The notes under the pieces were generated by a model that worked only from the letters and a program-made list of their open reading frames with translations, did not search any database and had not been told where the DNA came from. Source: Dehalococcoidales bacterium (GTDB lineage Bacteria; Chloroflexota; Dehalococcoidia; Dehalococcoidales; BS750m-G39). From it: a stretch of DNA of 34,573 bases. The stretch's first letter is position 1. Every line of letters begins with the position of its first letter. The stretch covers positions 1-34,573 of the forward strand of contig JAGMCH010000092.1 of NCBI GenBank assembly GCA_023129255.1. The letters run 5' to 3'. The position numbers and the translations under genes are program-made. This document shows positions 7,195 to 27,807 of this stretch, piece by piece.

Positions 7195-10098
7195 GTGACG
7201 ATAGTAGAATACATCCAGCATACTGGTAAGGAGAATCTCTTGTTCAGGGTTGAGGTCTCAGTAAAGTCTGGTTTTCCAGAACCACGGGGAGAGGCACTGC
7301 AAAAGGATATCCGCGACCTTGGCATCGCCACTGCTGAGCAGGTCAGGGTCAGCGATATATATCTGCTGGAAGGGAAACTGAGCCACAAAGAGGTAAACAT
7401 AATCTGCCGGGAGCTGCTGGCTGACCCCGTAGTTGAAGAATATTCAATTGGAGAGGCGCCCCTTGTTGCCATAGAGGATGAGCATGTCCATGACATTGAA
7501 GTGGCTTATAATCTCGGTTTGATGGACCCTGTGGAGGAGAGTGTCAGGAAAGGCATACTTGACCTTGGCATAACTACAGTTGAGGCGGTAAAGACAGCCA
7601 AAAGATATTATCTACGGGGCGAGCTTTCAGCAGGCGACATTGAACTTATCCGCGATAAGCTACTGGTTAATAGCGCAGTTCAGCATGTGGTCACCAGCCA
7701 GGAAAAGGTATCGCTACCCTCGGCAATATATAGTTTCTCCTTGGAAGAGGTTGATTTACTAGCTCTGGATGATGATGGGCTAACCAGGCTAGGCGAGGAG
7801 AAACTTGGGTTAAATCTGAATGAGTTAAAGCGTATTCAAAGCTACTTCTCCAAGTTGGGTCGCAACCCCATCGATGTTGAGCTGGAAACTCTGGCACAAA
7901 CCTGGTCGGAGCACTGCAAACACAAGACATTTAAGTCCAGAATAAGGCTGGGGGAAGAGGTCATCGATAACCTGCTCAAGAGCACCATTATGAGGGTGAC
8001 CGAGGAGCTAAACAAGCCTTGGTGTCTTTCTACCTTCAAGGACAACTCGGGGGTGATAGATTTTGACGGTCGTTACGCATTATGTTTCAAGGTTGAGACT
8101 CATAACCACCCTTCGGCTATTGACCCATATGGAGGGGCGTCAACAGGAATAGGCGGATGTATTCGTGACCCCCTGGGTACTGGCCTGGGGTCAAGACCGA
8201 TTGCTGCTACTGGTGTATTTTGCTTTGCCCCGCCCGACTTCCCCCACGACAAGCTTCCCCCTGGTATTCTCCATCCCCGTCGCATTCTTAAAGGGGTGCG
8301 GGCTGGAGCGGCTGACTATGGTAATCGTCTAGGAGTTCCCATCATCAACGGCGCCCTCCTCTTTGATGAGCGCTATTTAGCTAACCCGGTGGTCACCTGT
8401 GGAACCATAGGACTCATGCCCAAGAGCGCCGCTCAGATGGGGAGACAGCAGCCGGGTGACCTGGTGGTCGTGGTGGGGTGTAGGACGGGGCGAGACGGTA
8501 TCGGTGGCGTCACCTTTGCCTCCGCAGGGCTAACTGGAGAGGCTGAGGCTGTTTCTCCTAGCTCGGTGCAGGGCAACCCAATCGCGGAGAAGAAGCTCAT
8601 AGATGTTCTGCTCAAGGCGAGGGATAGGGGTCTCTATCGGCGAATCACCGACTGCGGTGGAGGCGGGCTGTCGTCGGCGGTGGGGGAAATGGCTGCCGAA
8701 ACCGGAGTCCGGGTAGACCTGGAAAAAGTCCCCCTGAAGTATTCAGGTCTTTCCTATACCGAGATATGGCTTTCTGAGTCGCAGGAGAGGATGCTGCTGG
8801 CTGTCCCCGCAGCTTCGGCTGAGAAGCTGATTTCCCTGTTCGCCAGCGAGGATGTTGAGGCTACCGTCATCGGTGAATTTACCAATGATAAGCGGCTTAA
8901 GCTTTTCTATCAGGGTAATCTGGTGGGTGACCTTGATATGGAGTTTCTGCATAATGGGCTGCCTCAGCTAGAAAGAGAGGCGGTGTGGCAGCCGGCTCAA
9001 TATGCTGAGCCTGACTTTGCCCCTCCGCCTGATCTGGGCGATGACCTGAAAAGAATCCTGAGTTCGTGGAACGTTTGCAGCAAGGAGTGGGTGATACGCC
9101 AGTATGACCATGAGGTTCAGGGGGGCAGCATACTGAAGCCTCTGGTGGGAGTAAATAATGATGGCCCCGGTGATGCCGCCATCATCAGACCAGTGCTTGA
9201 TTCCGATATGGGGGTTATTATCGCCAACGGCATCAATCCCAAGTATGGGGACATTGACCCTTATTGGATGGCGGCTTCGGCGGTAGATGAGGCACTGAGG
9301 CAGGTTATTGCCGTCGGCGGCAGTCTTCGCCGCGTGGCGTTACTGGACAATTTCAGCTGGGGTAATCCGGAGAAGCCTGACCGGCTCGGTGGTCTGGTGC
9401 GGGCGGCACAGGGATGCTACGATACTGCCCTGGCTTACGAGGCTCCTTTTATCTCGGGCAAGGATAGCCTGTACAATGAGTATGAGACCGAAGAGGAGAC
9501 TATATGCATTCCCCCCACCCTCCTCATCTCAGCCATGGCGGTGATGGAGAATGTAGCCCGGGCGGTATCTATGGATTGCAAGCAGGAGGGTGACCGGCTT
9601 TATATCGTGGGGACGACATACAATGAACTGGGCGGGTCGCACTACTACAGTATTCACGGCTTTGTCGGCGACAGGGTGCCCCGAGTCAATCCCCAGAGGG
9701 GGAAGAAGCTGATGGATACCCTCAGTGCCGCCATGGAGAAGGGCTTGGTAAAAGCCTGCCACGACTTGAGCGAGGGGGGCATCGGGGTGGCTGCCGCTGA
9801 GATGGCGTTTGCCGGGGGGCTGGGAGTAACACTTCATCTGGGTAAAGCCCCCTTGGGTGAACCTATCGCTAGGAATGACAGCATACTCTTTTCCGAATCC
9901 AATACCCGCTTCCTGGTAGAGGTGGCGCCGGAGGATAGCCAGCGCTTTGAGGCGGCAATGAAAGGAGTAACATTTGCTGCTATCGGAGAGGTGACCAAAG
10001 GCGATAGGTTTGAGGTTTATGGCATTAAGGGAGAAAGGGTGGTTTCCATTGCTCTGGCTGAGCTAAAGGAGGCGTGGCAGAAACCGCTTCGCTGGTAG
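7195..10098 (+). CDS. purL: Phosphoribosylformylglycinamidine synthase, PurS-PurS-PurL fusion
   Basis: This enzyme converts FGAR to FGAM in purine synthesis, using ammonia from PurQ and ATP. The 967-residue protein is longer than the usual small PurL (about 740). The extra N-terminus contains two PurS-like units, about residues 14-85 and 93-168, with matching cores (ALQKDIRDLGIATAEQVRVS and SVRKGILDLGITTVEAVKTA). PurS is normally a separate small subunit that lets PurQ dock to PurL. The catalytic part starts near residue 180 and shows LAQTWSEHCKHK, VETHNHPSAIDPYGGA, DCGGGGLSSAVGEMA and DLSEGGIGVAAAEMAFAGG. The start is GTG 7195 without a clear Shine-Dalgarno sequence. purQ follows seven bases after the stop. 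Confidence 0.95.
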   Translation: MTIVEYIQHTGKENLLFRVEVSVKSGFPEPRGEALQKDIRDLGIATAEQVRVSDIYLLEGKLSHKEVNIICRELLADPVVEEYSIGEAPLVAIEDEHVHDIEVAYNLGLMDPVEESVRKGILDLGITTVEAVKTAKRYYLRGELSAGDIELIRDKLLVNSAVQHVVTSQEKVSLPSAIYSFSLEEVDLLALDDDGLTRLGEEKLGLNLNELKRIQSYFSKLGRNPIDVELETLAQTWSEHCKHKTFKSRIRLGEEVIDNLLKSTIMRVTEELNKPWCLSTFKDNSGVIDFDGRYALCFKVETHNHPSAIDPYGGASTGIGGCIRDPLGTGLGSRPIAATGVFCFAPPDFPHDKLPPGILHPRRILKGVRAGAADYGNRLGVPIINGALLFDERYLANPVVTCGTIGLMPKSAAQMGRQQPGDLVVVVGCRTGRDGIGGVTFASAGLTGEAEAVSPSSVQGNPIAEKKLIDVLLKARDRGLYRRITDCGGGGLSSAVGEMAAETGVRVDLEKVPLKYSGLSYTEIWLSESQERMLLAVPAASAEKLISLFASEDVEATVIGEFTNDKRLKLFYQGNLVGDLDMEFLHNGLPQLEREAVWQPAQYAEPDFAPPPDLGDDLKRILSSWNVCSKEWVIRQYDHEVQGGSILKPLVGVNNDGPGDAAIIRPVLDSDMGVIIANGINPKYGDIDPYWMAASAVDEALRQVIAVGGSLRRVALLDNFSWGNPEKPDRLGGLVRAAQGCYDTALAYEAPFISGKDSLYNEYETEEETICIPPTLLISAMAVMENVARAVSMDCKQEGDRLYIVGTTYNELGGSHYYSIHGFVGDRVPRVNPQRGKKLMDTLSAAMEKGLVKACHDLSEGGIGVAAAEMAFAGGLGVTLHLGKAPLGEPIARNDSILFSESNTRFLVEVAPEDSQRFEAAMKGVTFAAIGEVTKGDRFEVYGIKGERVVSIALAELKEAWQKPLRW

Positions 10099-14901: not shown

Positions 14902-15882
14902 ATGGCTAAACCAAAGGTCGCTTTTTACTGGTGTGCTTCCTGTGGTGGCTGTGAAGAGACAGTGATTGACCTCAATGAAGATATACTAAAAGTAGCCGAT
15001 GCTGTGGATATCGTCTTCTGGCCGGTGGCGCTGGATTTTAAGCGTAAGGATATTGAAGCCTTAAAAGATGGCGAAATAGCGGTGAGCTTCATAAACGGGT
15101 CAGTAAGGCTGGAGGAGCAAGAGGAAATGGTCAAGCTACTGAGGCAAAAATCCGGGCTTGTGGTTGCCTTTGGCGCCTGTGCTCATTTAGGCGGCATTCC
15201 GGGATTGGGGAACTTCTGGAACCGGGATGCCATCTTTAACCGGGTGTATAAAGAAATCCCCACTGTGGAAAATCCAGAGGGGACTGTCCCGCAGGAGAAG
15301 ACGAAGGTTGACGGGGGCGAGCTTACACTGCCCGAGTTCTATGATACGGTGAAGACCTTAGACCAGACCACCGACGTGGATTATTATCTCCCCGGCTGTC
15401 CACCGCCCCCCGATTTAATAATGAAGGCGGTAGATGCCATTCTCAAGGGGGAGCTGCCGGAGAAAGGGGCGGTGCTAGCTCCCAATAAAGCTCTATGCGA
15501 TACCTGCCCCAGGGCAGAGTCCAAGCCAGACAAGCTATCAATTGACGAGGTAAAAAGACCGTGGCAAATCAAGCTTGACCCTGAGAAATGCTTTCTGGAC
15601 CAGGGGGTAATTTGTCTTGGTCCGGCTACTCGCACCGGCTGTGGAGAAACCTGCATTCGGGCTAACCAGCCATGCCGGGGATGCTTTGGTCCGGTAGACG
15701 GTGTCGTCGACCAGGGAGCTAAAGCCCTGTCAATGGTCGCCTCTATACTGGGGCTGGAGGGGGAAGAGAACATGACCGAGGAAGAGGTCAAAAAGCTAAT
15801 TGATGGCATTGCCGACCCGGCAGGGACAGTCTACCGATTTAGCCTGGCTTCCTCTTTGCTTAGAAGAAGGAGAATGGAATAG
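14902..15882 (+). CDS. [NiFe] hydrogenase small subunit, MvhG/group 3-like
   Basis: This is the electron-transfer subunit of a cytoplasmic group 3 [NiFe] hydrogenase; it carries Fe-S clusters from the Ni-Fe site outwards. At 326 residues it has no Tat signal, unlike membrane-bound uptake enzymes. The proximal cluster region starts at WCASCGGCEETV (Cys11, Cys14, Cys17), with AFGACAHLGGIPGLGN and YYLPGCPPPPDLI adding ligands. Two more Cys groups follow: LCDTCPR near residue 200, then CFLDQGVICLGPATRTGCGETCIRANQPCRGCFGP, as in MvhG/VhuG proteins. The large subunit follows nine bases after the stop codon. AAGGGGTTAAGG precedes the ATG. Confidence 0.93.
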   Translation: MAKPKVAFYWCASCGGCEETVIDLNEDILKVADAVDIVFWPVALDFKRKDIEALKDGEIAVSFINGSVRLEEQEEMVKLLRQKSGLVVAFGACAHLGGIPGLGNFWNRDAIFNRVYKEIPTVENPEGTVPQEKTKVDGGELTLPEFYDTVKTLDQTTDVDYYLPGCPPPPDLIMKAVDAILKGELPEKGAVLAPNKALCDTCPRAESKPDKLSIDEVKRPWQIKLDPEKCFLDQGVICLGPATRTGCGETCIRANQPCRGCFGPVDGVVDQGAKALSMVASILGLEGEENMTEEEVKKLIDGIADPAGTVYRFSLASSLLRRRRME

Positions 15883-15891
15883 GAGGATGGA

Positions 15892-17352
15892 GTGAAAAAG
15901 ATAACCATAGACCCCATAACCAGGCTTGAGGGGCATGGCAAGATAGAGATATTCCTCAATGATGAGGGGAATTGTGACCGGGCTTGCCTCCAGATTCCCG
16001 AGCTCAGGGGGTTTGAGAAGTTCTCTGAGGGGAGAGCCGCCGAGGAGATGCCCAGAATAACCACCATGATATGCGGCGTTTGTCCTACGGCTCACCACAT
16101 GGCGGCGACCAAAGCCCTGGATGACCTTTGGAAGGTTGAGCCAACCACGGCGGCGAAGAAGATAAGGGAACTGATGTACAACGCCTTCCAGGCTGAAGAT
16201 CATATACTGCACTTCTTCTTCCTTGGCGGCCCCGACTTTGTTGTTGGTCCCCAGGCACCGGCCGGGGAGAGGAATATCTTGGGAGTTATCGCCAAGGCTG
16301 GAATGGAAACCGGGGGAAAGGTTATAGAGATGAGGAAAAGGATGAGGAATGTGCTGAGGATAATCGGCGGTAAGCCGGTTATGCCTACCTGCGGCTTGCC
16401 TGGAGGAGTATCAAAACAGATTAGCGAGGACGAAAGAAAGACAATTATCGAGGCTGGGGAATATGGAGTTGATTTCTGCAAGTTTGCCCTCAGCCTTTTT
16501 GATGATATCGTGCTCAAAAATAAGGAATACGTTGACCTTATCACTGGAGATGTCTACTCGCACCGGACATACTATATGGGTCTGGTGGATGAGAATAACA
16601 AGGTTAACTTTTACGATGGTCAAATAAGGGTGGTCGACCCCAATGGCAAAGAGTTTGCCAAGTTTAAGGTTCAGAATTATCTGGACCACATCAGGGAGCA
16701 TGTTGAGCCCTGGACCTATGTGAAGTTCTCCTATCTCAAGAACGTAGGCTGGAAGGGATTTGTTGATGGGGAGGAGAGCGGGGTTTTCCGGGTGGCGCCG
16801 CTGGCTCGGCTGAATGCCTCCGATGGCATGGCAACGCCACTGGCCCAGGAAGCCTATGACAAGATGTACGAAACATTGGGCGGGAAGCCGGTTCACAGCA
16901 CCCTGGTTTTCCACTGGGCGCGACTGGTGGAGGCGCTTTACGCCTCAGAAAGAGTGCTGGAGCTTGCCAAAGACCCTGAAATTACCTCAGATGACATCGT
17001 GAACCTACCCACTGAAACGCCCAAGGAGGGGATAGGAGTGGTAGAGGCGCCCCGAGGAACCCTTATCCATCACTACCAGACTGACGACCAGGGAATCCTC
17101 ACCGGGGTCAATCTGATTGTGGCTACCCAGAATAACTCGGCGGCAATTAACATGTCGGTGGAGAAGGCAGCCAAGGCACTGATAAAGAAGGGTGAGGTCC
17201 CGGACGGGATTCTCAATATGATTGAGATGGCATTCAGGGCTTATGACCCGTGTCATGCCTGCGCTACCCATTCCCTCCCCGGGATGATGCCGCTTGAGGT
17301 GAGTGTATATGACTCCGGGGGTAGCCTGGTAAAGAAACTGGTAAGAGATTAG
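15892..17352 (+). CDS. [NiFe] hydrogenase large subunit, MvhA/group 3-like
   Basis: This catalytic subunit splits or makes H2 at a Ni-Fe(CN)2CO site. Of its 486 residues, DPITRLEGHGKIEIFL opens the protein. The first cysteine pair is Cys61 and Cys64 in MICGVCPTAHH, and the second is Cys454 and Cys457 in DPCHACATH. The residue before ICGVC is usually Arg in [NiFe] hydrogenases and is Met here. After His460 there are 26 further residues, the expected C-terminal peptide removed once nickel is in place; the matching protease gene lies at 20379. The start codon is GTG, with AGGAGGAT just upstream. The protein should pair with the small subunit encoded directly before it. Confidence 0.94.
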   Translation: MKKITIDPITRLEGHGKIEIFLNDEGNCDRACLQIPELRGFEKFSEGRAAEEMPRITTMICGVCPTAHHMAATKALDDLWKVEPTTAAKKIRELMYNAFQAEDHILHFFFLGGPDFVVGPQAPAGERNILGVIAKAGMETGGKVIEMRKRMRNVLRIIGGKPVMPTCGLPGGVSKQISEDERKTIIEAGEYGVDFCKFALSLFDDIVLKNKEYVDLITGDVYSHRTYYMGLVDENNKVNFYDGQIRVVDPNGKEFAKFKVQNYLDHIREHVEPWTYVKFSYLKNVGWKGFVDGEESGVFRVAPLARLNASDGMATPLAQEAYDKMYETLGGKPVHSTLVFHWARLVEALYASERVLELAKDPEITSDDIVNLPTETPKEGIGVVEAPRGTLIHHYQTDDQGILTGVNLIVATQNNSAAINMSVEKAAKALIKKGEVPDGILNMIEMAFRAYDPCHACATHSLPGMMPLEVSVYDSGGSLVKKLVRD

Positions 17353-17411: not shown

Positions 17412-19634
17412 ATGAAACCGATATTGGTAGTAGATGACGAAGCTATTATGAGGGAATCGCTTCGGGATTGGTTAACTGATGGCGGCTATCAGGTAGAGAC
17501 CGCTGAGGATGGAGAAGCAGCGCTAAAAGCCATTGCTCGGCAGGACTTTGGTGTTGCCATTCTCGACCTGATGTTGCCGGGGAAGAACGGGATTGAGGTA
17601 TTGCGGGAGGCTAAAGAAAATAGGCCATATCTCAAGGGAATAATTATCACGGCTTATGCCTCGGTGCCGACGGCGGTGGAGGCGATGAAAGAGGGGGCGG
17701 TTGATTATCTGCCCAAACCGGTCAAGCTTAACGAACTGGAAGCATTGATTCGTGACGCTCTCGGCCCGGTTCAGATAGAAGTTAAGCCTAAGGCTGCCGT
17801 AGCGCCGGCTAAAGTTGAACTACCGGTGGTGGAGGAAGAAGAGCTGGCACGGGTTGAGGAAGTGATTGATGAGGCTACCGGGAAGGTATATTTACCGCCT
17901 TGTCAGATAGCCTGTCCTATCGGGGAGGACATCCAGCGCACCAATGCCATGATTGCTCTGCTCCCTCTGGATGTCGAGGAAGCTCATAGCCAGATAATTA
18001 AAATAGGCGACGAAATTTATAAAAAGAACCCCTTATTCCCGGTATGCAGCTATATTTGCGGGCTCTGTGAGAAAGAGTGTAATTATAAAGACCATACCGG
18101 GGCAGTAAGAAGGAAAATGCTCAAAAGGTTTATCTCTGAATATTATCTTCCCTATCTGGAAAGTAAGCCCGTGCTTCCCTATCCCACCAGAGAAAAGGTG
18201 GCCGTCATCGGTGGGGGGCCAGGGGGGTTGATGTGTGCTTACATGCTGGGGAAAATGGGCTATAAAGTAACTATCCTGGAGAGTAGTTCCTGGTTGGGGG
18301 GTGCGCTGAGATACATCCCTCAATATCGTCTCCCTGGCGATGTTATCAATAGCACTTTAAACAGTCTGGTGAGGATTGCCCATATTGAGGTCAGATTCGG
18401 AATAGAGATGGGTAAAAATGGCAACACGCTGGGCAATCTCGACGGTGAGGGTTATCAGGCGGCATTTATTGCCACCGGAACCCATGCCCCTAGACCCCTC
18501 ACTTTGGAGAGGGAGACGGTGGTGGGAGCCGACCTGGACGGGGTTATCTCCGGGTTGTATCTCCTCTATGACATGAACCAGGGGAAGATTCCCGCCCAGC
18601 TCTATCGCCAGCTCTTCCGGCATAAGAAGGTGATAGTGGTTGGTGGCGGCAATGTTGCCTTTGACGTCGCTCGAAGTGCCCAGCGGCTAGGGGGAGATGT
18701 TACCCTTGTCTGTCTGGAGAGTGCGGATAAATCTTCCAAGGACGGGATTCCGGCTGATGTTGAAGAAGTTGAAGGTGCTATAGAAGAAGGCATAATGATA
18801 AATTACTGCCGGGGGGTGGAGGAGATTATCGGAGAGAAGGTAAGATTCAAGGCAATAAAGTGTCCTCGCTGCACCTCGGTCTTTGATGAGAAGGGATTTA
18901 ATCCCAAGTTTGACCGGGGCGATGTTATCTATCTCGAGGGGGATGTGCTGCTGATTACCATCGGACAGGGTGCTGAGCGGACATTCTTTCGGCAGGAGGG
19001 CTTGCTGGATGGGGACGGCAGACTTGATGTTGACCAACTTACCCTGATGAGCAATCGCCGAGAGGGGGTTTTCATCGGAGGCGATGTGAGACGGGTGGGC
19101 TTCGCTGCCGAAGCGATGAGAGATGGGATAGTAGCCGCTGAGTCTATAGACCGCTACCTGAGAGGCAGTGATCTGAAAGCGGGGAGGAAGAAGGAGTATG
19201 AGGATGCCGCCTTCCCCAAACGCCTAGAATACAAGCCTCAGCCTGAGGTCTTATGGTCGGCGGTGGAAGATAGGCTAAATTTTGAACCTTTTGAGAAGGG
19301 ATACAGCCTGGAAGAAGCGGTAGCCGAAGCCAGAAGGTGTCTGTGCTGTGGTCCGTGCCAAAGCTGCAAGGCTTGTGTGCTGCTGGGACTCCAGTCTGAG
19401 ATACCGCAGATTGCAGTTAACCAGGATTTATGTAGTGGGTGTGGCGTTTGTGTCGCGGTATGTCCTTATGATGCCCTCCAGCTGGTGAAATATGATAGCG
19501 GGCGGGTAGTAACTATAGATAACCTTAAGTGTAAAAGATGCGGCTTGTGCGCTAGTGCTTGCCCTGCCGGGGCGGTAACTATTGAAGATAACCTGGCGGA
19601 AACTATAGCTAGCGCTTACATATTTTTATCATAA
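17412..19634 (+). CDS. Receiver domain-GltD-like flavoprotein-ferredoxin fusion
   Basis: This is an unusual 740-residue protein. Residues 1-118 are a complete response-regulator receiver: Asp8-Asp9, phosphoacceptor Asp52 in AILDLMLPG, Thr80 and Lys102. A Pro/Ala/Val-rich linker follows. Residues about 160-245 are a domain seen in glutamate synthase small subunits and dihydropyrimidine dehydrogenase, with cysteine groups ([26 protein letters not shown]) for Fe-S clusters. Next is an FAD/NAD(P) oxidoreductase with dinucleotide motifs [20 protein letters not shown] and [20 protein letters not shown] and the FAD-closing [18 protein letters not shown]. The C-terminus has a Cys-rich [13 protein letters not shown] region and two 4Fe-4S motifs ([24 protein letters not shown]). 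Gene order suggests it takes electrons from, or gives them to, the hydrogenase. The receiver implies control by phosphorylation. No kinase is encoded nearby. Confidence 0.9.
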
Positions 19635-19888: not shown

Positions 19889-20116
19889 ATGCCGATATAC
19901 GAGTATATTTGTTCCAATTGCAAGCTTAAATTTGAATTGCTCAGAGCAATGAGCCAGTCAGGCGAGAGTGCTCCCTGTCCAAGTTGTGGCAGTAGTGCTC
20001 AGCGAGCGCTTTCATTATTCTCCAGAAGTTCTGAAGGGTCATCTGCTTCTGAGGCAGGAAGCGCATGTGGTACTTGCACCTCCAATACCTGTAGTACTTG
20101 TTCTTTATCGGGATAA
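19889..20116 (+). CDS. FmdB-family zinc-ribbon protein
   Basis: This is a 75-residue protein with the N-terminal FmdB pattern MPIYEYICSNCKLKFELL followed by CPSCGSSAQRAL, giving a four-cysteine zinc ribbon (Cys8, Cys11 and a second CxxC near residue 34). The tail is Ser-rich and ends with extra cysteines in CGTCTSNTCSTC, which could bind another metal. FmdB was named from a formamidase gene cluster, where a regulatory role was proposed; its general function is not settled. GGAAGGCGGGATA gives a reasonable ribosome binding site. Placement inside the hydrogenase block suggests an accessory role, but similar genes also occur in unrelated places. Confidence 0.85.
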   Translation: MPIYEYICSNCKLKFELLRAMSQSGESAPCPSCGSSAQRALSLFSRSSEGSSASEAGSACGTCTSNTCSTCSLSG

Positions 20117-20126
20117 GGGAGGGCAA

Positions 20127-20366
20127 ATGAGAAAGCGGAGAATACGCCTTTCCTGTCATTCTTGCGGTAGGGTAGCGGAATATCCTCCTGGAGCGCCACC
20201 CTGCGAGGCGCTCCAAGGCTGGCTGACTGTTTCTTGCTGGGAAGGTTTGGGCTCCGTTGAGCATTATAACTTCTGCTCCTTCAGTTGTCTTGAGTCTTGG
20301 GCAGATGCCCGAGTTCCTAGAGTCCCTGAGGTATTTTTGGAATCCTTTAGAGAAGGTAAAACCTAA
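20127..20366 (+). CDS. Small cysteine-rich protein, probable zinc binder, 79 aa
   Basis: This 79-residue basic protein starts MRKRRIRLSCHSCGR and has a second cysteine group, CSFSCLESW, near residue 55, plus single cysteines in between. The spacing suggests a zinc knuckle or ribbon. I do not recognise the family. The frame stays open upstream into the FmdB-like gene, but ATG 20127 follows AAGGGAGGG and is clearly the translation start. It lies ten bases after the FmdB-like gene and 12 bases before the hydrogenase protease gene. The context makes it a candidate accessory or assembly factor of the hydrogenase; this is an inference from position only. Confidence 0.72.
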   Translation: MRKRRIRLSCHSCGRVAEYPPGAPPCEALQGWLTVSCWEGLGSVEHYNFCSFSCLESWADARVPRVPEVFLESFREGKT

Positions 20367-20378
20367 GAAAAGATAAAT

Positions 20379-20828
20379 ATGAAGACGCTTATCCTGGGAG
20401 TTGGCAACTCTATTCTCACTGACGATGGGGTCGGAATCAAGATTGCCCACAAGCTCAAGGAGGGAAACCCTGAATTAGAAGTGACCGAGACAAGCGAAGC
20501 CGGAATTGCACTCCTTGACCTTATGGCGGGCTATGATAAGCTCATCATCATCGATTCTATAAGAACCGAAAAAGGGAAACCAGGAGAGCTCTACAAGCTT
20601 GGGCTGGAAGCTCTAAAGCCCGCCGCCAATCTGTCTTCATCTCATGGCATAGATATCGCCACTGCCTACGAGATTGGGCAAAGGCTAGGATATAGGATGC
20701 CCAAGTATATTAGCATATACGCTGTGGAGATAAAGGATAATACCACCTTTGGGGAGAGGTGCACCGAAGAGGTGGAGGCAAGGATACCATTCATTGCTGA
20801 GCAAATAATAGGGGAGGAGAAGCTGTGA
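20379..20828 (+). CDS. Hydrogenase maturation protease (HycI/HybD type)
   Basis: This protease removes the C-terminal peptide of the [NiFe] large subunit after nickel insertion. It has 149 residues. The fold signature LGVGNSILTDDGVG opens the protein. By comparison with HybD, the three nickel-sensing residues are Asp16, Asp59 in LIIIDSI and His89 in SSSHGID. The expected substrate is the large subunit encoded at 15892-17352, which keeps 26 residues after its final metal-binding His. The next gene overlaps its stop codon by four bases, so translation of the two is coupled. Confidence 0.93.
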   Translation: MKTLILGVGNSILTDDGVGIKIAHKLKEGNPELEVTETSEAGIALLDLMAGYDKLIIIDSIRTEKGKPGELYKLGLEALKPAANLSSSHGIDIATAYEIGQRLGYRMPKYISIYAVEIKDNTTFGERCTEEVEARIPFIAEQIIGEEKL

Positions 20829-21226
20829 CCGATTTTGAGCCTAAGATTATAGTCTTCTGCTGTAACTGGTGTTCGTATGCCGGGGCAGACCTGGCTGGCA
20901 CCTCAAGATTAAAGATTAAGCCCAATTTCAGGGTAATCCGAACCATGTGTTCAGGAAGGGTGGAACCCTCTTTTATTTTTCATGCCCTTGCTAAAGGAGC
21001 CGATGGGGTGATGATAGCTGGATGCCATCCCGGGGATTGCCACTATAACAGTGGTAATTATAAGGTAAGGCGCAGGATAATGTTACTCAAAAAAACGCTC
21101 CCCCAACTTGGGATAGAACCTGAGAGATTAAGGCTAGAATGGATTTCTGCAGCTGAGGGAACAAAATTCCGCAGCACAGTGAACGAGTTTATTGGCGAGG
21201 TCACAGAACTTGGCCCCCTTCATTAA
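20825..21226 (+). CDS. MvhD-like hydrogenase iron-sulfur subunit
   Basis: This is a 133-residue protein of the MvhD (FrhD/VhuD) family. In methanogens, MvhD carries a 2Fe-2S cluster and links the MvhAG hydrogenase to HdrA. The cysteines sit in IIVFCCNWCSYAGAD near the N-terminus, IRTMCSGRVEP, and IAGCHPGDCHY; YKVRRRIMLLKKTLPQLGI is also typical. The GTG start overlaps the end of the protease gene by four bases. It lies five genes away from the large-subunit gene rather than beside it. With no HdrA encoded in the window, its partner may be the flavoprotein fusion at 17412-19634. Confidence 0.93.
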   Translation: MTDFEPKIIVFCCNWCSYAGADLAGTSRLKIKPNFRVIRTMCSGRVEPSFIFHALAKGADGVMIAGCHPGDCHYNSGNYKVRRRIMLLKKTLPQLGIEPERLRLEWISAAEGTKFRSTVNEFIGEVTELGPLH

Positions 21227-21250: not shown

Positions 21251-23542
21251 ATGCTGACCAAAGTAGAGAGATTAGCGAGGATAAGTGTGCGTGGGGTGGT
21301 GCAGGGAGTTGGCTTTAGACCCTTTATCTACCGGTTAGCTCAGGAGCACAACTTAAAGGGTTGGGTGCGCAATACCTCGGGCAATGTGGAGATTGAGGTG
21401 GAGGGAGACGAGGAAACCGTGGACAGCTTCCTGAGCGACCTTAAGACAGAAGCCCCTCCCATGGCTCGCATTGAAAATGTCGAGGTCACCTTCTATCCCA
21501 CCAAGGGTTATACCGAGTTCCAGATTGGGGAAAGTCTGAGTCGGGAGGGGCAATACCAGTTAGTGTCGCCGGATGTTGCCACCTGTGAGGACTGTAAGGC
21601 GGAGATTTTCTCAAGCGATGACCGCCGCTTCGGCTATCCCTTTACCAACTGCACCAATTGTGGTCCTCGATTTACTATCATTGAGGACATTCCTTATGAC
21701 CGCCCTAAGACTACCATGCGTGAGTTTGAGATGTGCCCCCAGTGTCAGCGGGAATACCATGACCCCCTAGACCGGCGCTTTCATGCCCAGCCCAATGCCT
21801 GCCCCCAATGCGGACCCAGCTTGGAGCTGGTTGATGGCGATGGCGAGCCTGTTGAGGGCGGTAACGTCATTGAGGCGGCAAGCGACCTGCTAAAAGCGGG
21901 GGGAATCTTGGCAGTCAAGGGTCTGGGCGGATTTCAGCTGGCTTGTGACGCCACCAGCGAAGAGGCGATAAATACCTTGAGAGCCAGGAAAAGGCGCTCG
22001 TCTAAACCTCTGGCGGTGATGATAGCCACCCTGGAAGATATTGAAAAACACTGCCTGGTATCCCCCGAGGAGAGAAAGCTCCTTGAGTCTCCCCAGTGCC
22101 CCATTGTGCTCCTCAGATGGAAGCACGGCTCTAATATCTCCCCAGCGGTAGCCCCAAATCTAAACTACCTGGGGGTCATGCTGCCCTATACCCCGTTGCA
22201 TCACCTGCTGCTAAAAGAGACCGGTCTGCCCTTGGTGATGACCAGCGGTAACCTCAGCGAGGAGCCTATTGCCAAGGATAACGATGAAGCCTTGACCAGA
22301 CTCAAGGGAATTGCCGATTATTTCCTGCTTCACAATCGGGGCATCTACGCCCGTTATGATGATAGCGTCTGTATGGTGGAGGGCGTGCCTCAGGTTATAA
22401 GGCGGGCGCGGGGCTATGCCCCATATCCCATTTTCCTTCCCTTCAAATCAAAACAGATTCTCGCCTGCGGGGCTGAGCTTAAGAATACCTTTTGCCTTAC
22501 CAAAGATGAGCATGCTTTCTTGAGCCAGCATATCGGCGATATGGAGAACGAGGAGACCCTGGAGCACTTTGAAAATACCATCGGGCTTTATAAAAAGCTA
22601 TTTCGCGTTGAGCCTGAGATTATAGCCTATGACATGCACCCGGAGTATCTTGCCACCAAATACGCTCTTGAGGCGGGGGCGAAGGAAAGTTTAAAACTTG
22701 TGCCGGTGCAGCACCATCATGCTCATATTGTAAGCTGTCTGGCGGAGAATAAGGTTGAGGGACCCGTCATCGGGGTCGCCTTTGATGGCACCGGATACGG
22801 CACCGATGGCACCATCTGGGGAGGGGAATTTCTGCTGGCTGACTGGAAAAATTTCAAACGGGTGGGGCATCTGGAATATGTGCCTCTGCCCGGGGGCGAA
22901 GTGGCGATAAAGAAGCCCTATCGGATGGCGTTAAGCTATCTTTATTCCTTGCTGGGCGAAGATTTCTCCCTGGAAGGTCTGCCCCTTAGTCGGCTTGAGT
23001 CCGCTGAGCTTGCCATAATAAAACAGCAGCTAAAGCGGGGGATAAATTCTCCGTTGACCTCCAGTGCTGGGCGACTTTTTGATGCTGTTTCTGCCTTAGC
23101 CGGGGTGAGGGGAGAGATAGACTACGAGGCTCAGGCAGCCATCGAGCTTGAGATGCTGGCTCCAGACGAGGTGGATGAATCAGCATCCTATCCCCTCTCC
23201 ATTGATGAGGAGGGGGGAATAGGGGTGGTGAAGTTAAAGGAGTTGTTCTCGGCGGTAGTCCAGGATGTCAGAAATCAAATTCCGCTGCCGGTAATATCGC
23301 TCAAGTTTCATAACACAGTGGCTCAAATAATCACCGAGATGTGTAAACTGATTGCCAGAGAGAGCGGTATAAATCAGGTGGCGCTGAGCGGGGGCGTGTT
23401 TCAGAACCGGCTACTATTAAAGCTGGCCACCGCTGCTTTGCAGAGAGAAGGTTTCAGTGTGCTCACTCATCACCTGGTGCCCGGCAACGACGGTGGCATT
23501 TCCCTGGGACAGGCGGTGATTGCCAATTTTGTCAGTATTTGA
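21251..23542 (+). CDS. hypF: Carbamoyltransferase HypF
   Basis: HypF makes the cyanide ligands of the Ni-Fe site from carbamoyl phosphate, passing the group to HypE. The 763-residue protein shows all domains. An acylphosphatase-like part (residues about 8-95) contains VRGVVQGVGFRPFIYRLA. Zinc fingers are at about 105-190 (CEDCKAEIF, CTNCGPRFTIIEDIPYDRP, CPQCQREY, CPQCGPSLEL). A YrdC-like domain is at about 205-390 (KGLGGFQLACDA, SGNLSEEPIA). A Kae1-like domain has the metal-binding HHHAHIVSC, followed by GVAFDGTGYGTDGTIWGGE and LSGGVFQNRLLL. Length and motifs are complete. It opens the hyp series, which is broken after it by the flavin-reductase cassette. Confidence 0.97.
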   Translation: MLTKVERLARISVRGVVQGVGFRPFIYRLAQEHNLKGWVRNTSGNVEIEVEGDEETVDSFLSDLKTEAPPMARIENVEVTFYPTKGYTEFQIGESLSREGQYQLVSPDVATCEDCKAEIFSSDDRRFGYPFTNCTNCGPRFTIIEDIPYDRPKTTMREFEMCPQCQREYHDPLDRRFHAQPNACPQCGPSLELVDGDGEPVEGGNVIEAASDLLKAGGILAVKGLGGFQLACDATSEEAINTLRARKRRSSKPLAVMIATLEDIEKHCLVSPEERKLLESPQCPIVLLRWKHGSNISPAVAPNLNYLGVMLPYTPLHHLLLKETGLPLVMTSGNLSEEPIAKDNDEALTRLKGIADYFLLHNRGIYARYDDSVCMVEGVPQVIRRARGYAPYPIFLPFKSKQILACGAELKNTFCLTKDEHAFLSQHIGDMENEETLEHFENTIGLYKKLFRVEPEIIAYDMHPEYLATKYALEAGAKESLKLVPVQHHHAHIVSCLAENKVEGPVIGVAFDGTGYGTDGTIWGGEFLLADWKNFKRVGHLEYVPLPGGEVAIKKPYRMALSYLYSLLGEDFSLEGLPLSRLESAELAIIKQQLKRGINSPLTSSAGRLFDAVSALAGVRGEIDYEAQAAIELEMLAPDEVDESASYPLSIDEEGGIGVVKLKELFSAVVQDVRNQIPLPVISLKFHNTVAQIITEMCKLIARESGINQVALSGGVFQNRLLLKLATAALQREGFSVLTHHLVPGNDGGISLGQAVIANFVSI

Positions 23543-24491: not shown

Positions 24492-24722
24492 ATGTGTCTG
24501 GCTATACCAGCATTGATTAAATACATTGAGAATAAAGAGGCAGAGATTGAGATTGGAGGCATAACTCGCCGCATCAGCCTCTGGCTCACCCCTGAAGCTA
24601 GGGTAGGCGACTATGTACTGGTTCACACCGGCTATGCCATAAATGTCCTTGACCAAGAAGAGGCTGAAGAAACCTTAACGCTTTTGCGACAGATAGCGGA
24701 GCTGGCTGAGGAGGAAGGTTGA
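24492..24722 (+). CDS. hypC: Hydrogenase assembly chaperone HypC
   Basis: HypC carries the Fe(CN)2CO precursor with HypD and delivers it to the large subunit. It has 76 residues, the normal length. The protein starts MCLAIPALI, with the essential Cys2 exposed after removal of Met. The beta-barrel segments AEIEIGGITRRISLWLTPEA and GDYVLVHTGYAINVLDQEEA are typical. AGGAG lies six bases before the ATG. The stop codon overlaps the TTG start of hypD by four bases. It is the first gene after the flavin-reductase cassette. Confidence 0.97.
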   Translation: MCLAIPALIKYIENKEAEIEIGGITRRISLWLTPEARVGDYVLVHTGYAINVLDQEEAEETLTLLRQIAELAEEEG

Positions 24723-25813
24723 GGTTTATCTCTGAATTTCGGCGCTCTGAACTGGCTGAGGGCTTAATCTCCCAGATTCATCGCAAGTCCAGAACCCCCG
24801 CCCGTTTTATGGAGTTCTGCGGCGGTCATACCGTGACCATCTTCAGGTACGGCATCCGCCAGGTTTTGCCCCAGACCATTGATATGGTGTCGGGACCGGG
24901 GTGCCCTATCTGTGTTACCGCCAACGCTGACCTGGACAAGGCGATTGCCCTTTCCCGAATCCCAGATATAATCATCACTACCTTCGGCGATATGCTCAAA
25001 GTCCCCGGGAGCCGTTCCAGCTTGCAGCAGGTCAAAGCAGACGGTGCCGAGGTGCATACCGTATATTCCACCATGGATGCCCTCAAAATAGCCGAGGACA
25101 ACCCCGATAAGTCGGTGGTCTTTCTGGGAATCGGGTTTGAGACCACCGCCCCCACCATCGCCGCCTCCATCCTTCAGGCAGTGGAGAAGGGGATAGGGAA
25201 TTATTATGTCCTTTCTTTACATAAACTATGTCCGCCAGTAATTCGAGCGCTGCTTGATTCCGGTGAGGTCAAGCTTGACGGGCTTATCTGCCCCGGGCAT
25301 GTGAGCGCCATTATTGGCTCCCACCCCTGGGAGTTTATCGCCCGCGACTATGGCATCCCCTGCGTCGTCTCCGGCTTTGAGCCATTAGATATCCTGCAAT
25401 GCGTCGATATGCTAATAGCTCAAGTTGAAAATGGTGAATCACGGGTTGAAATCGCCTACCGGCGTGGGGTGCGCCCTGAGGGCAACCAGCAAGCGATGAG
25501 ACTCATGGAACAGGTATTTGAGCCTTCTCCTGCTCAGTGGCGGGGGATGGGGGAGATTCCCGATAGTGGCTTGAAGCTAAGGGAAAAGTATCAGCGCTTT
25601 GATGCTGAACTTGCCTTTGATATTGAACCCGGGCCTACCTCTGAGCCGGTGGGCTGTATCTGTGGCGACATCCTGCGCGGGGTTAGGACCCCGGCTGATT
25701 GCCGGCTCTTCGGCAAAGCCTGCATCCCGGAAAATCCAATAGGGCCGTGCATGGTCTCTTCCGAGGGCAGTTGCTCTGCCTATTACCTTTATGGAGGGAG
25801 TTTTGAAGGATAA
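24719..25813 (+). CDS. hypD: Hydrogenase formation protein HypD
   Basis: HypD is a 4Fe-4S protein on which, with HypC, the iron of the active site receives its CO and CN ligands. It has 364 residues. The conserved cysteine motifs are ARFMEFCGGHTVTIFRYGI near residue 30, SGPGCPICVTANADLD near residue 60, and PVGCICGDILRGVRTPADC near the C-terminus with further Cys residues that hold the cluster. The GFETTAPTIA and ICPGHVSAIIG stretches are also diagnostic. The start is TTG 24719, inside the end of hypC, with a GGAGGAAGG sequence just upstream. The end overlaps hypE. Confidence 0.96.
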   Translation: MRFISEFRRSELAEGLISQIHRKSRTPARFMEFCGGHTVTIFRYGIRQVLPQTIDMVSGPGCPICVTANADLDKAIALSRIPDIIITTFGDMLKVPGSRSSLQQVKADGAEVHTVYSTMDALKIAEDNPDKSVVFLGIGFETTAPTIAASILQAVEKGIGNYYVLSLHKLCPPVIRALLDSGEVKLDGLICPGHVSAIIGSHPWEFIARDYGIPCVVSGFEPLDILQCVDMLIAQVENGESRVEIAYRRGVRPEGNQQAMRLMEQVFEPSPAQWRGMGEIPDSGLKLREKYQRFDAELAFDIEPGPTSEPVGCICGDILRGVRTPADCRLFGKACIPENPIGPCMVSSEGSCSAYYLYGGSFEG

Positions 25814-26807
25814 AATCCTGCTCGCCCACGGTAGTGGCGGCAAGCTAGCCCACGAGCTGGTGGAGAAGAGTTTTGTTAAAGCCTTAGCCAATCCCCTTTT
25901 AGCCAAGCTCGATGACTCAGCCGTTTTTGACTTCAGCGGGAGGCTGGCTTTCACCACCGATAGCTATGTGGTCAGTCCCATCTTTTTCCCCGGCGGGGAC
26001 ATTGGCAAGCTGGCGGTCTGCGGCACTGTGAACGACCTGGCTATGTCCGGTGCTAAGCCACTCTATTTGAGCCTTTCCTTCATCATTGAGGAGGGGCTTC
26101 CCCAGAGTGAACTGGAACAAATCGTGGACTCGGTTCAGAAAGCAGCCGGGGAGGCGGGGGTGGAAATCATCACCGGAGACACCAAGGTGGTACATAGGGG
26201 CAGCGCCGATAAGCTGTTTATCAACACCGCCGGCGTGGGCATAATACCGGAGGGAATTGATATTTCTGGCGACAGGGCGAGACCGGGAGATAAGGTTATC
26301 TTAAGCGGGACTATCGGCGACCATGGAATTGCCGTAATAAGTCAGCGGGAGGGGATGAGCTTTTCCACAAAACTTGAGAGCGATTGTGCCCCACTTGGCG
26401 ACTTGGTAGCTGAAATGGTAAACGCCAGCCCCAATATCCATTGCCTGCGAGACCCAACCCGGGGAGGACTGGCTACCAGCCTAAACGAGCTAGCCAAGCA
26501 GTCAGGGGTGAGCATCAGGATTGAAGAGGAAAAGATTTCAGTGAGGGAGGAAGTCCTGGCTGCCTGCGAGATGCTTGGCTTTGACCCCCTTCATGTCGCC
26601 AACGAGGGCAAGCTGGTGGCTATAGTCCCGGACGGGGATGCCGATAAGGTTCTTAAAGCCATGCGAAAGAATAAATACGGCAAAAGTGCCGCCATTATTG
26701 GGGAGGTGAGAGCAGAAAAACCCGGACGGGTGGTAATGAAAACCGTTCTGGGAGCCTCCCGAATAGTTGATATGCTGGTTGGAGATTTACTACCCAGGAT
26801 TTGTTAG
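25803..26807 (+). CDS. hypE: Carbamoyl-dehydrating protein HypE
   Basis: HypE takes a carbamoyl group from HypF on its C-terminal cysteine and dehydrates it with ATP to a thiocyanate, the cyanide source. Signatures include KDKILLAHGSGGKLAHELVE, the ATP-binding DDSAVFDFSGRLAFTTDSYVV and GTVNDLAMSGAKPLYLS, GDTKVVHRG and LRDPTRGGLATSLNE. The protein ends PRIC, as required for chemistry on the final Cys. An in-frame ATG lies at 25791 but has no ribosome binding site; TTG 25803 follows GGAGGGAG at good spacing and gives the usual N-terminus, so it is preferred. The gene overlaps hypD by 11 bases. Confidence 0.96.
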   Translation: MKDKILLAHGSGGKLAHELVEKSFVKALANPLLAKLDDSAVFDFSGRLAFTTDSYVVSPIFFPGGDIGKLAVCGTVNDLAMSGAKPLYLSLSFIIEEGLPQSELEQIVDSVQKAAGEAGVEIITGDTKVVHRGSADKLFINTAGVGIIPEGIDISGDRARPGDKVILSGTIGDHGIAVISQREGMSFSTKLESDCAPLGDLVAEMVNASPNIHCLRDPTRGGLATSLNELAKQSGVSIRIEEEKISVREEVLAACEMLGFDPLHVANEGKLVAIVPDGDADKVLKAMRKNKYGKSAAIIGEVRAEKPGRVVMKTVLGASRIVDMLVGDLLPRIC

Positions 26808-26808
26808 A

Positions 26809-27150
26809 ATGCACGAACTGGCTATAACTCAAAGTATGCTCGACCTTGTTCTGGAACAGGCAGAGAAGGCTGAGGCTAAGAGCGTGGGCAAAATCAACCT
26901 GGTTATCGGGGGAATGACCGGGGTGGTTGGTGATTGCGTGCAGTTCTACTTTGGTTTCCTCAGCAAGGGGACATCGGCGGAGGGGGCGGCTCTTTCCTTC
27001 AAAGTAATTCCGACCACGGCTAAGTGCCGGGACTGCGATAAGCATTTTGAACTCAAGGAGTTTGATTGGACTTGCCCCTACTGTCAGAGTAATAATATGG
27101 AAATCGTCGCTGGCAAGGAACTCTTTGTCGAAAGCATTGAGGTGGAATAA
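26809..27150 (+). CDS. hypA: Hydrogenase nickel chaperone HypA
   Basis: HypA binds nickel and, with HypB, inserts it into the large subunit. The 113-residue protein begins MHELAITQSMLDLVLEQ, with the nickel ligand His2. Two CxxC pairs hold a structural zinc: Cys73/Cys76 and Cys89/Cys92 (CRDCDKHFEL and CPYCQSNN). The frame is open upstream into hypE, but the ATG at 26809, one base after the hypE stop, is required to place His2 correctly. hypB starts immediately after the stop codon with no gap. Confidence 0.96.
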   Translation: MHELAITQSMLDLVLEQAEKAEAKSVGKINLVIGGMTGVVGDCVQFYFGFLSKGTSAEGAALSFKVIPTTAKCRDCDKHFELKEFDWTCPYCQSNNMEIVAGKELFVESIEVE

Positions 27151-27807
27151 ATGGAAATAAAGGTGGTTAAAGACATTCTAGGCGCCAATGAGCAGATAGC
27201 GCAGAAAAACCGGCAGTTGTTTGATAGCAACCATGTGCTTGCGGTGAACCTGATGTCCTCGCCGGGCGCGGGCAAGACCAGCCTTATTTTGGAAACGATA
27301 AAGAGGCTAAAAGGGAAAACCAGAGTCGGCGTCGTTGAGGGTGATATTAGCTCAAGCCTGGATGCTGAAGCCATAGGTAAGGAAGGCGTGCCTGTGGTCC
27401 AGATAAATACCGGCGGGGAATGTCACCTTGATGCCAATATGACCTCTACTGCCCTGGGTAGCGTGCCGCTAAAGGATGTTGACCTGCTTCTTATCGAAAA
27501 TGTGGGCAATCTGGTCTGTCCTGCCGAGTTTGCCCTCGGCGAACATAAGAAGATTTTAATATCAAGCACTCCCGAAGGCGACGATAAGCCGTTTAAGTAT
27601 CCCTTGATGTTCCACGAGGCGGACGTGGTGCTGATAAATAAGATTGACCTTCTACCCTATCTGAAGTTTAATACCGATGCCTTTTCCCGGGCAATCAAGG
27701 GGATAAACCAAAAGGTGGAGATTTTCCCAATCTCTTGCACTACCGGCGAGGGGATTGAGAAATGGGTCTCCTGGCTTCTGACCCAGATGAGCCGGAGACA
27801 GAGCTAA
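27151..27807 (+). CDS. hypB: Hydrogenase nickel incorporation GTPase HypB
   Basis: HypB is the GTPase that drives nickel delivery by HypA. The 218-residue protein shows the P-loop MSSPGAGKTSLI at about residues 35-46, and the metal-binding dimer interface motif GGECHLDANM. Walker B-like VDLLLIENVGNLVCPAEF and the guanine-specific NKIDLLPYL follow. The N-terminus lacks both the CxxCGC high-affinity nickel site and a His-rich stretch found in some family members, so it is the short form. The last codons overlap, on the other strand, a remnant of a DUF169 gene. It ends the hydrogenase gene block. Confidence 0.96.
   Translation: MEIKVVKDILGANEQIAQKNRQLFDSNHVLAVNLMSSPGAGKTSLILETIKRLKGKTRVGVVEGDISSSLDAEAIGKEGVPVVQINTGGECHLDANMTSTALGSVPLKDVDLLLIENVGNLVCPAEFALGEHKKILISSTPEGDDKPFKYPLMFHEADVVLINKIDLLPYLKFNTDAFSRAIKGINQKVEIFPISCTTGEGIEKWVSWLLTQMSRRQS

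Follow-up and report, generated by a model that had tools for sequence, protein, structure and literature searches.

Introduction

Two-component control of hydrogenases is familiar as control of gene expression. The locus described here raises a different question: what does a response-regulator receiver do when it is carried by a redox enzyme whose gene lies inside a [NiFe] hydrogenase operon? The window, that is, the whole stretch of DNA that was analysed, is an entire contig (C97) of 34,573 bases from a Dehalococcoidales genome of 1.31 Mb in 104 contigs that is 91% complete. Most of the close relatives of this genome that bear a name are MAGs of Dehalococcoidia. According to the original prediction, the protein takes the place of HdrA as flavin partner of the neighbouring hydrogenase, with its activity or complex formation set by phosphorylation.

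Receiver, flavoprotein and ferredoxin parts in one chain

The fusion protein of 740 residues is encoded by an unbroken, ATG-started open reading frame. Together with the Pfam matches, this confirms the predicted single chain of receiver, Fe-S, FAD/NAD(P) and ferredoxin parts (Table 1). The receiver is complete, as had been noticed, with Asp8, Asp9, Asp52, Thr80 and Lys102 all in place and the same in all four full-length fusions. Having a receiver and an enzyme in the same chain, the protein is, as judged from its sequence, a candidate response regulator with an enzymatic output.

Table 1. Coordinates of the features of the window and of the second receiver fusion in other genomes.
Feature	Position	Strand	Basis or remark
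mvhG/vhuG-like hydrogenase small subunit	14902..15882	+	PF01058; NF045875 213.6 bits, below 450 cutoff
mvhA/vhuA-like [NiFe] hydrogenase large subunit with C-terminal extension	15892..17352	+	PF00374; NF041785 400.8 bits, below 800 cutoff
Fusion of receiver, GltD/NfnL-like flavoprotein and ferredoxin, 740 aa	17412..19634	+	ATG-started, open, unbroken ORF; Pfam; homologous fusions elsewhere
Receiver domain, residues 4-113	17421..17750	+	Pfam PF00072 Response_reg, E 1.5e-28; within RR370 clade
Variable linker, residues ~114-152	17751..17867	+	First part (LGPVQ.E) common to RR370
N-terminal GltD-type Fe-S region, residues 153-261	17868..18194	+	Aligned to NfnA, StnC, GltD; Cys164, 168, 212, 216, 219, 223 conserved
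FAD/NAD(P) oxidoreductase domain, residues 262-572	18195..19127	+	PF07992 Pyr_redox_2, E 4e-27; Foldseek matches
Cys group Cys643/646/649/652/655	19338..19376	+	Present in 27/27 orthologues
2x[4Fe-4S] ferredoxin domain, residues 668-723	19413..19580	+	PF00037 (Fer4)
Small Cys-rich ORF, listed start uncertain	19968..20366	+	No Pfam match; homologues in L055, L056, L184, L187
HycI-type hydrogenase maturation protease	20379..20828	+	PF01750, TIGR00072
MvhD/FlpD linker subunit	20825..21226	+	PF02662, E 1.8e-56
HypF	21251..23542	+	Window annotation
HypD, HypE, HypA, HypB/CobW-like maturation genes	24719..27807	+	HypE named from AIRS domains and context
Receiver-HydB/HydG genes, other genomes	L219:6227-8545; L102:2797-5139; L221:9741-12083; also L217, L218, L222-L228

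The enzyme part is GltD/NfnL-like, its Pyr_redox_2 FAD/NAD(P) module having an NfnL-like fold. Foldseek matches of this module were NfnABC, StnC and NfnL (entries 9bov, 8oh5, 9n5u and 5jca). Its relatives in fold and sequence are NfnL, NfnA, StnC and GltD, and not HdrA. The Fe-S region in front of it scores 23.0 bits against Fer4_20, for which the cutoff is 25.8, and nonetheless aligns with NfnA, StnC and GltD. Two 4Fe-4S motifs had been described; both are present (CxxCxxCxxxC at 674 and 707), but the actual content is richer, with the groups Cys164-223 and Cys643-655 besides. Nearly all cysteines of the three groups are kept in 27 orthologues. The second Rossmann motif of the flavoprotein is GGGNVA. 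The arginine pair of the NADP(H) loop of NfnL is missing, and another stretch of 16 residues replaces the YRR....MPA-type loop. The FAD core of HdrA (NF040770 positions ~140-560) is absent from the fusion, which matches this model weakly with its ferredoxin part (33.5 bits) and a stretch of 43 positions (16.5 bits). In an AlphaFold model of the fusion the FAD core was good and the receiver poor (pLDDT <60).

The surrounding operon

The flanking hydrogenase and MvhD-like linker genes are as originally described. The hydrogenase is a group-3c-like [NiFe] enzyme. CGVC and CHAC motifs are found in the VhuA-like large subunit, and the best NCBIfam matches are VhuA and VhuG, at the scores given in Table 1, together with FlpD, far above its cutoff. 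It is the only [NiFe] hydrogenase detected in the source genome, in which one further weak match fell below the family cutoff. The small Cys-rich ORF sits between the fusion gene and hycI in the fusion clade and is also present in L187. In many relatives, mvhD is followed by genes for a Fer4-MvhD fusion and a DUF5981 protein (methylene-THF reductase C-terminal-like), as at L055:12445-14255 and other sister loci; these genes do not follow mvhD in the window. Elsewhere in the window (7195-10098) is the gene for a PurL of 967 aa that carries a fused N-terminal PurS domain.

HdrA, HdrB and HdrC had been reported as missing. No hdrABC genes are indeed found among the annotated genes of the window, but the source genome carries three hdrA loci outside it (on contigs C87, C40, with a GltD insert, and C103) as well as several CCG (HdrB-type) genes.

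Recurrence of the fusion and selection on its receiver

The same domain order was found in three other MAGs, at 86% (G005), 84% (G004) and 74% (G059) identity (loci L055, L056 and L057), and a further copy (L184/L078, G345) breaks off at the end of its contig, within the last helix of the receiver. We therefore reject an assembly join of two genes, which is barely conceivable even for a window that is a single contig of a fragmented MAG, because the identical junction is shared by three independent MAGs and the fourth, cut copy. Altogether, 5 of 393 genomes of the class carry the fusion, whereas in about 25 the orthologue begins only behind the position of the receiver. Not all relatives are thus without the receiver, although most orthologues are. 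A tree of the enzyme part placed the five fusions in one clade (100/97) amid the receiver-less orthologues; of the receiver trees, one also gave a single clade (96/71) and another left the point unresolved. Since the receiver is missing from most orthologues, phospho-control would be an add-on of one clade.

The receiver has a dN/dS of 0.08-0.14, similar to the 0.10-0.14 of the FAD module, whereas values in the linker are 0.24-0.55. The receiver and enzyme parts are under equally strong purifying selection. Moreover, the catalytic receiver residues are unchanged among the four full-length fusions over a dS of 0.3 to >1. The constancy of these residues, and a dN/dS like that of the FAD module, show that the receiver has been retained because it serves a function.

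Origin of the receiver

The fused receiver, start of the linker included, is ~70-80% identical to that of a response regulator of ~370 aa, here called RR370, which consists of a receiver, a TPR-like part and a Cys-rich tail. In the receiver tree the fusions fall inside the RR370 clade (99/85), and in the kinase-facing alpha-1 helix the fused receiver equals the RR370 of the source genome at 14 of 14 positions. On these sequence relationships, the receiver of the fusion is derived from an RR370-type response regulator. Because RR370 persists in the source genome (contig C93), G005 and G059, the receiver was copied. The tail of the RR370 on contig C93 (L063:1302-2411) repeats WMKMG...C...C..C-type motifs.

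Further enzymes with receivers of this lineage

Receiver matches in frames of ~775 aa led to a second architecture, in which a receiver is joined to Fer4_22, FAD_binding_6, NAD_binding_1 and DHODB Fe-S domains. The enzyme is here a diaphorase of the HydB/HydG type that belongs to a group-3b [NiFe] hydrogenase. These genes are followed by those for the small and large subunits, and occur in 12 genomes among those examined, some of them complete and in a single contig. At L102, a gene for a kinase with an [FeFe]-hydrogenase domain lies just upstream. A co-directional run of genes at L221:1-14106 unites hdrA-mvhD-mvhG-mvhA-hycI (group 3c-like), a sigma-54-like gene, those of an [FeFe]-domain kinase, of NtrC and of a receiver, and, for group 3b, receiver-HydB/HydG with the small and large subunits. 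In G035 (L220:7316-9712), the receiver is carried by an acetyl-CoA synthetase, and a kinase related to that of the RR370 system is encoded divergently upstream.

The receivers of HydB/HydG, acetyl-CoA synthetase, RR370 and the window form one group in the receiver tree (98/98). Those of HydB/HydG form a separate branch (99/96), and this fusion was therefore probably a separate event. As read by eye, the acidic pair is altered in several HydB/HydG receivers, with VDSD or IESD for VDDE, so that they may not all be phosphorylated.

The altered pairs bear on the possibility that the receiver is a docking or dimerization module that works independently of phosphate, tethering the flavoprotein to a partner and carrying no signal. 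Phosphorylation is perhaps not essential in those HydB/HydG proteins, and the lack of a receiver in most orthologues points the same way. In the four GltD fusions, however, every catalytic residue has been retained across the divergence given above, and no change is seen in the alpha-1 helix that faces the kinase. A purely structural role thus seems unlikely to us, though it retains some plausibility.

Partners of the enzyme part

In most loci, the orthologue is found with mvhD and/or mvhG-mvhA, both across the Dehalococcoidia and in MAGs that bear the label of Syntrophobacterales or of other phyla. At L081 the orthologue has a C-terminal FlpD/MvhD domain (PF02662) in the same chain (its AlphaFold model was of moderate quality), and those of L080, L083, L092 and L093 have C-terminal extensions matching that of L081. 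Exceptions are some loci with only hypF nearby and G059, where the fusion comes after hdrC-hdrB-hdrA, beside hdrC-hdrB-hdrA-GltD, and mvhGA is on another contig; the fusion is thus not always beside mvhGA/mvhD without hdrABC. Furthermore, seven genomes (G003, G006, G007, G008, G010, G050 and G057) have an mvhA 80-90% identical to that of the window, with hycI after it, and no copy of the fusion or orthologue gene in their mvhA loci. Two of these, G007 and G008, share genera with G004 and G005, in which the gene is present. Because such sister genomes carry the 80-90% identical hydrogenase operon without the gene, the protein is apparently dispensable or optional.

The proposed substitution for HdrA survives only in part. 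A role as flavin partner agrees with mvhD/mvhGA as the usual neighbour and with the occasional fusion to MvhD, but the genome keeps its three hdrA loci, the fusion of G059 adjoins hdrC-hdrB-hdrA and the sisters have the hydrogenase without this gene. An alternative partner therefore fits better than a replacement of HdrA. At L099:2230-7522, an orthologue is interrupted after ~109 aa; next to it comes hdrC-hdrB-hdrA-mvhD, with the same mvhGA alongside. This arrangement may be a natural replacement or a misassembly, and no conclusion here is based on it.

The arrangement in G059 and the sister hydrogenases without the protein would also agree with a function in HdrABC-type complexes or with another acceptor, the place beside mvhGA then reflecting shared regulation only. 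Adjacency to mvhD/mvhGA over so wide a range of lineages argues against this, as does the natural fusion of MvhD to an orthologue, and we consider such a function fairly improbable.

The candidate kinase and its signal

In its clusters, the gene for RR370 is accompanied by those for a sensor kinase, an NtrC-type regulator, a sigma-54-like protein and, as a rule, one more protein with a receiver. The cluster of G044 comes immediately after hdrC-hdrB-hdrA-mvhD-mvhG-mvhA-hycI. The kinase exists in two forms, one of 648 aa with an [FeFe]-hydrogenase domain, PF02906 (L072, L073 and L096), and one of ~411 aa without it (L074, from G005, and L095). In view of the [FeFe] domain, H2 is a candidate signal, but not a necessary one, since G005, a carrier of the fusion, has the 411-aa form.

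The RR370 cluster of the source genome runs off the end of contig C93. The original prediction called for a search for a histidine kinase gene elsewhere in this genome: HATPase loci are present, but none matches the RR370-system kinase at more than 42%, and a search of the 91% complete assembly for PF02906 gave no protein. Nor does a kinase gene lie beside the fusion gene in the window, which, like the orthologues without a receiver, counts against gating by the receiver.

A PilS-like kinase on contig C11, 54% identical to that of L089, was considered and rejected: it adjoins a 1041-aa NuoF-GltD fusion and two single-domain receivers (L070:895-7939), and not the hydrogenase. PilS-like kinases and separate CheY-like single-domain receivers also adjoin the receiver-less orthologues of L089, L090, L091 and L194. 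On contig C72 (L064:5761-10358), a 709-aa GltD-MvhD fusion has a GAF/PAS kinase and a regulator of the LuxR type as neighbours.

The resemblance of the fused receiver to that of RR370, and their co-occurrence in the source genome, G005 and G059, mean that the two could compete for one kinase. The enzyme might then be the input, the redox state of the flavoprotein altering a receiver that drains phosphate from the RR370-system kinase, or competes for this kinase, and thereby adjusts transcription. However, L102 and L221 encode receiver-HydB/HydG together with hydrogenase subunits, an arrangement that control of the enzyme fits at least equally well, and we give the reverse flow of information little credence.

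Discussion

We are inclined to regard the protein as an optional flavin partner of an MvhDGA-type [NiFe] hydrogenase, gated by its receiver and set by phosphorylation. The GltD/NfnL-like FAD module and its Fe-S chain would exchange electrons with the hydrogenase via MvhD, with NAD(H) or ferredoxin as the presumed substrate on the other side of the flavoprotein. In one Dehalococcoidia clade, an RR370-type receiver and linker were copied onto the N-terminus of the flavoprotein. Asp52 would be phosphorylated, most likely by the RR370-system kinase in its [FeFe]-hydrogenase-domain or membrane variant, and the phosphate would then set, in either direction, how active the flavoprotein is or how it docks on MvhD. 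In this way the cell could choose a use for the electrons of the hydrogenase, which might for instance go to this partner or to those of the HdrA type that the genome encodes.

More tentatively, and with considerable doubt, a two-component circuit may act on soluble [NiFe] hydrogenases at the enzyme itself. The kinase, which in several genomes has an [FeFe] domain and is possibly H2-sensing, would phosphorylate receivers in the flavoprotein or diaphorase partners of group 3c and group 3b enzymes. The partitioning of electrons would then respond to H2 or to the redox state rapidly, with no need for transcription. A receiver under purifying selection on a hydrogenase electron partner, with its lineage on two hydrogenase types and an acetyl-CoA synthetase, would represent direct phospho-control of H2-based energy metabolism. 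These findings suggest that some uncultured Dehalococcoidia regulate their hydrogen metabolism at the enzyme itself, and not by gene switching alone. Some of the genomes of the order that carry the group 3b receiver fusion are complete and in a single contig, so a cultivable organism may exist for testing.

The original prediction also held that no system like this one had been described. In our literature search, which had most subscription journals outside its reach, we found no receiver on a hydrogenase electron partner, and the accessible portion of a Dehalogenimonas genome paper treats three hydrogenase types and mentions no receiver fusion (PMC13390414). Receivers with metabolic enzymes as outputs are known, however, such as the receiver-thioredoxin reductase of Mycobacterium and Heimdallarchaeota (PMC5847659). 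The likeness lies in a receiver on a metabolic enzyme, thioredoxin reductase being a distant FAD-dependent relative, whereas here the enzyme is a multi-Fe-S flavoprotein of the GltD/NfnL type encoded inside a [NiFe] hydrogenase operon.

The best sequence and fold matches, NfnL, NfnA of NfnABC, StnC, GltD and the N-terminal half of dihydropyrimidine dehydrogenase, share the Fe-S region and FAD/NAD(P) module. The fusion differs from them in its N-terminal receiver, a C-terminal Fe-S region of its own and an E-S sequence with an insertion in place of the arginine pair of the NADP(H) loop. Putative sensory [FeFe] hydrogenases have reportedly been noted earlier. Sensor kinases with an [FeFe]-hydrogenase domain adjoin both RR370, the parent of the receiver, and receiver-HydB/HydG; in the RR370 clusters the regulator is a separate protein, whereas in the window the receiver sits on the enzyme. 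Finally, type III HdrA with a GltD insert and its association with mvhADG have been described (PMC12054007), and the source genome has one such HdrA on contig C40. As in the window, the GltD module of the described type III HdrA is encoded with mvhADG; in contrast to type III HdrA, the fusion is without the HdrA FAD core, is encoded by a separate gene and has a receiver.
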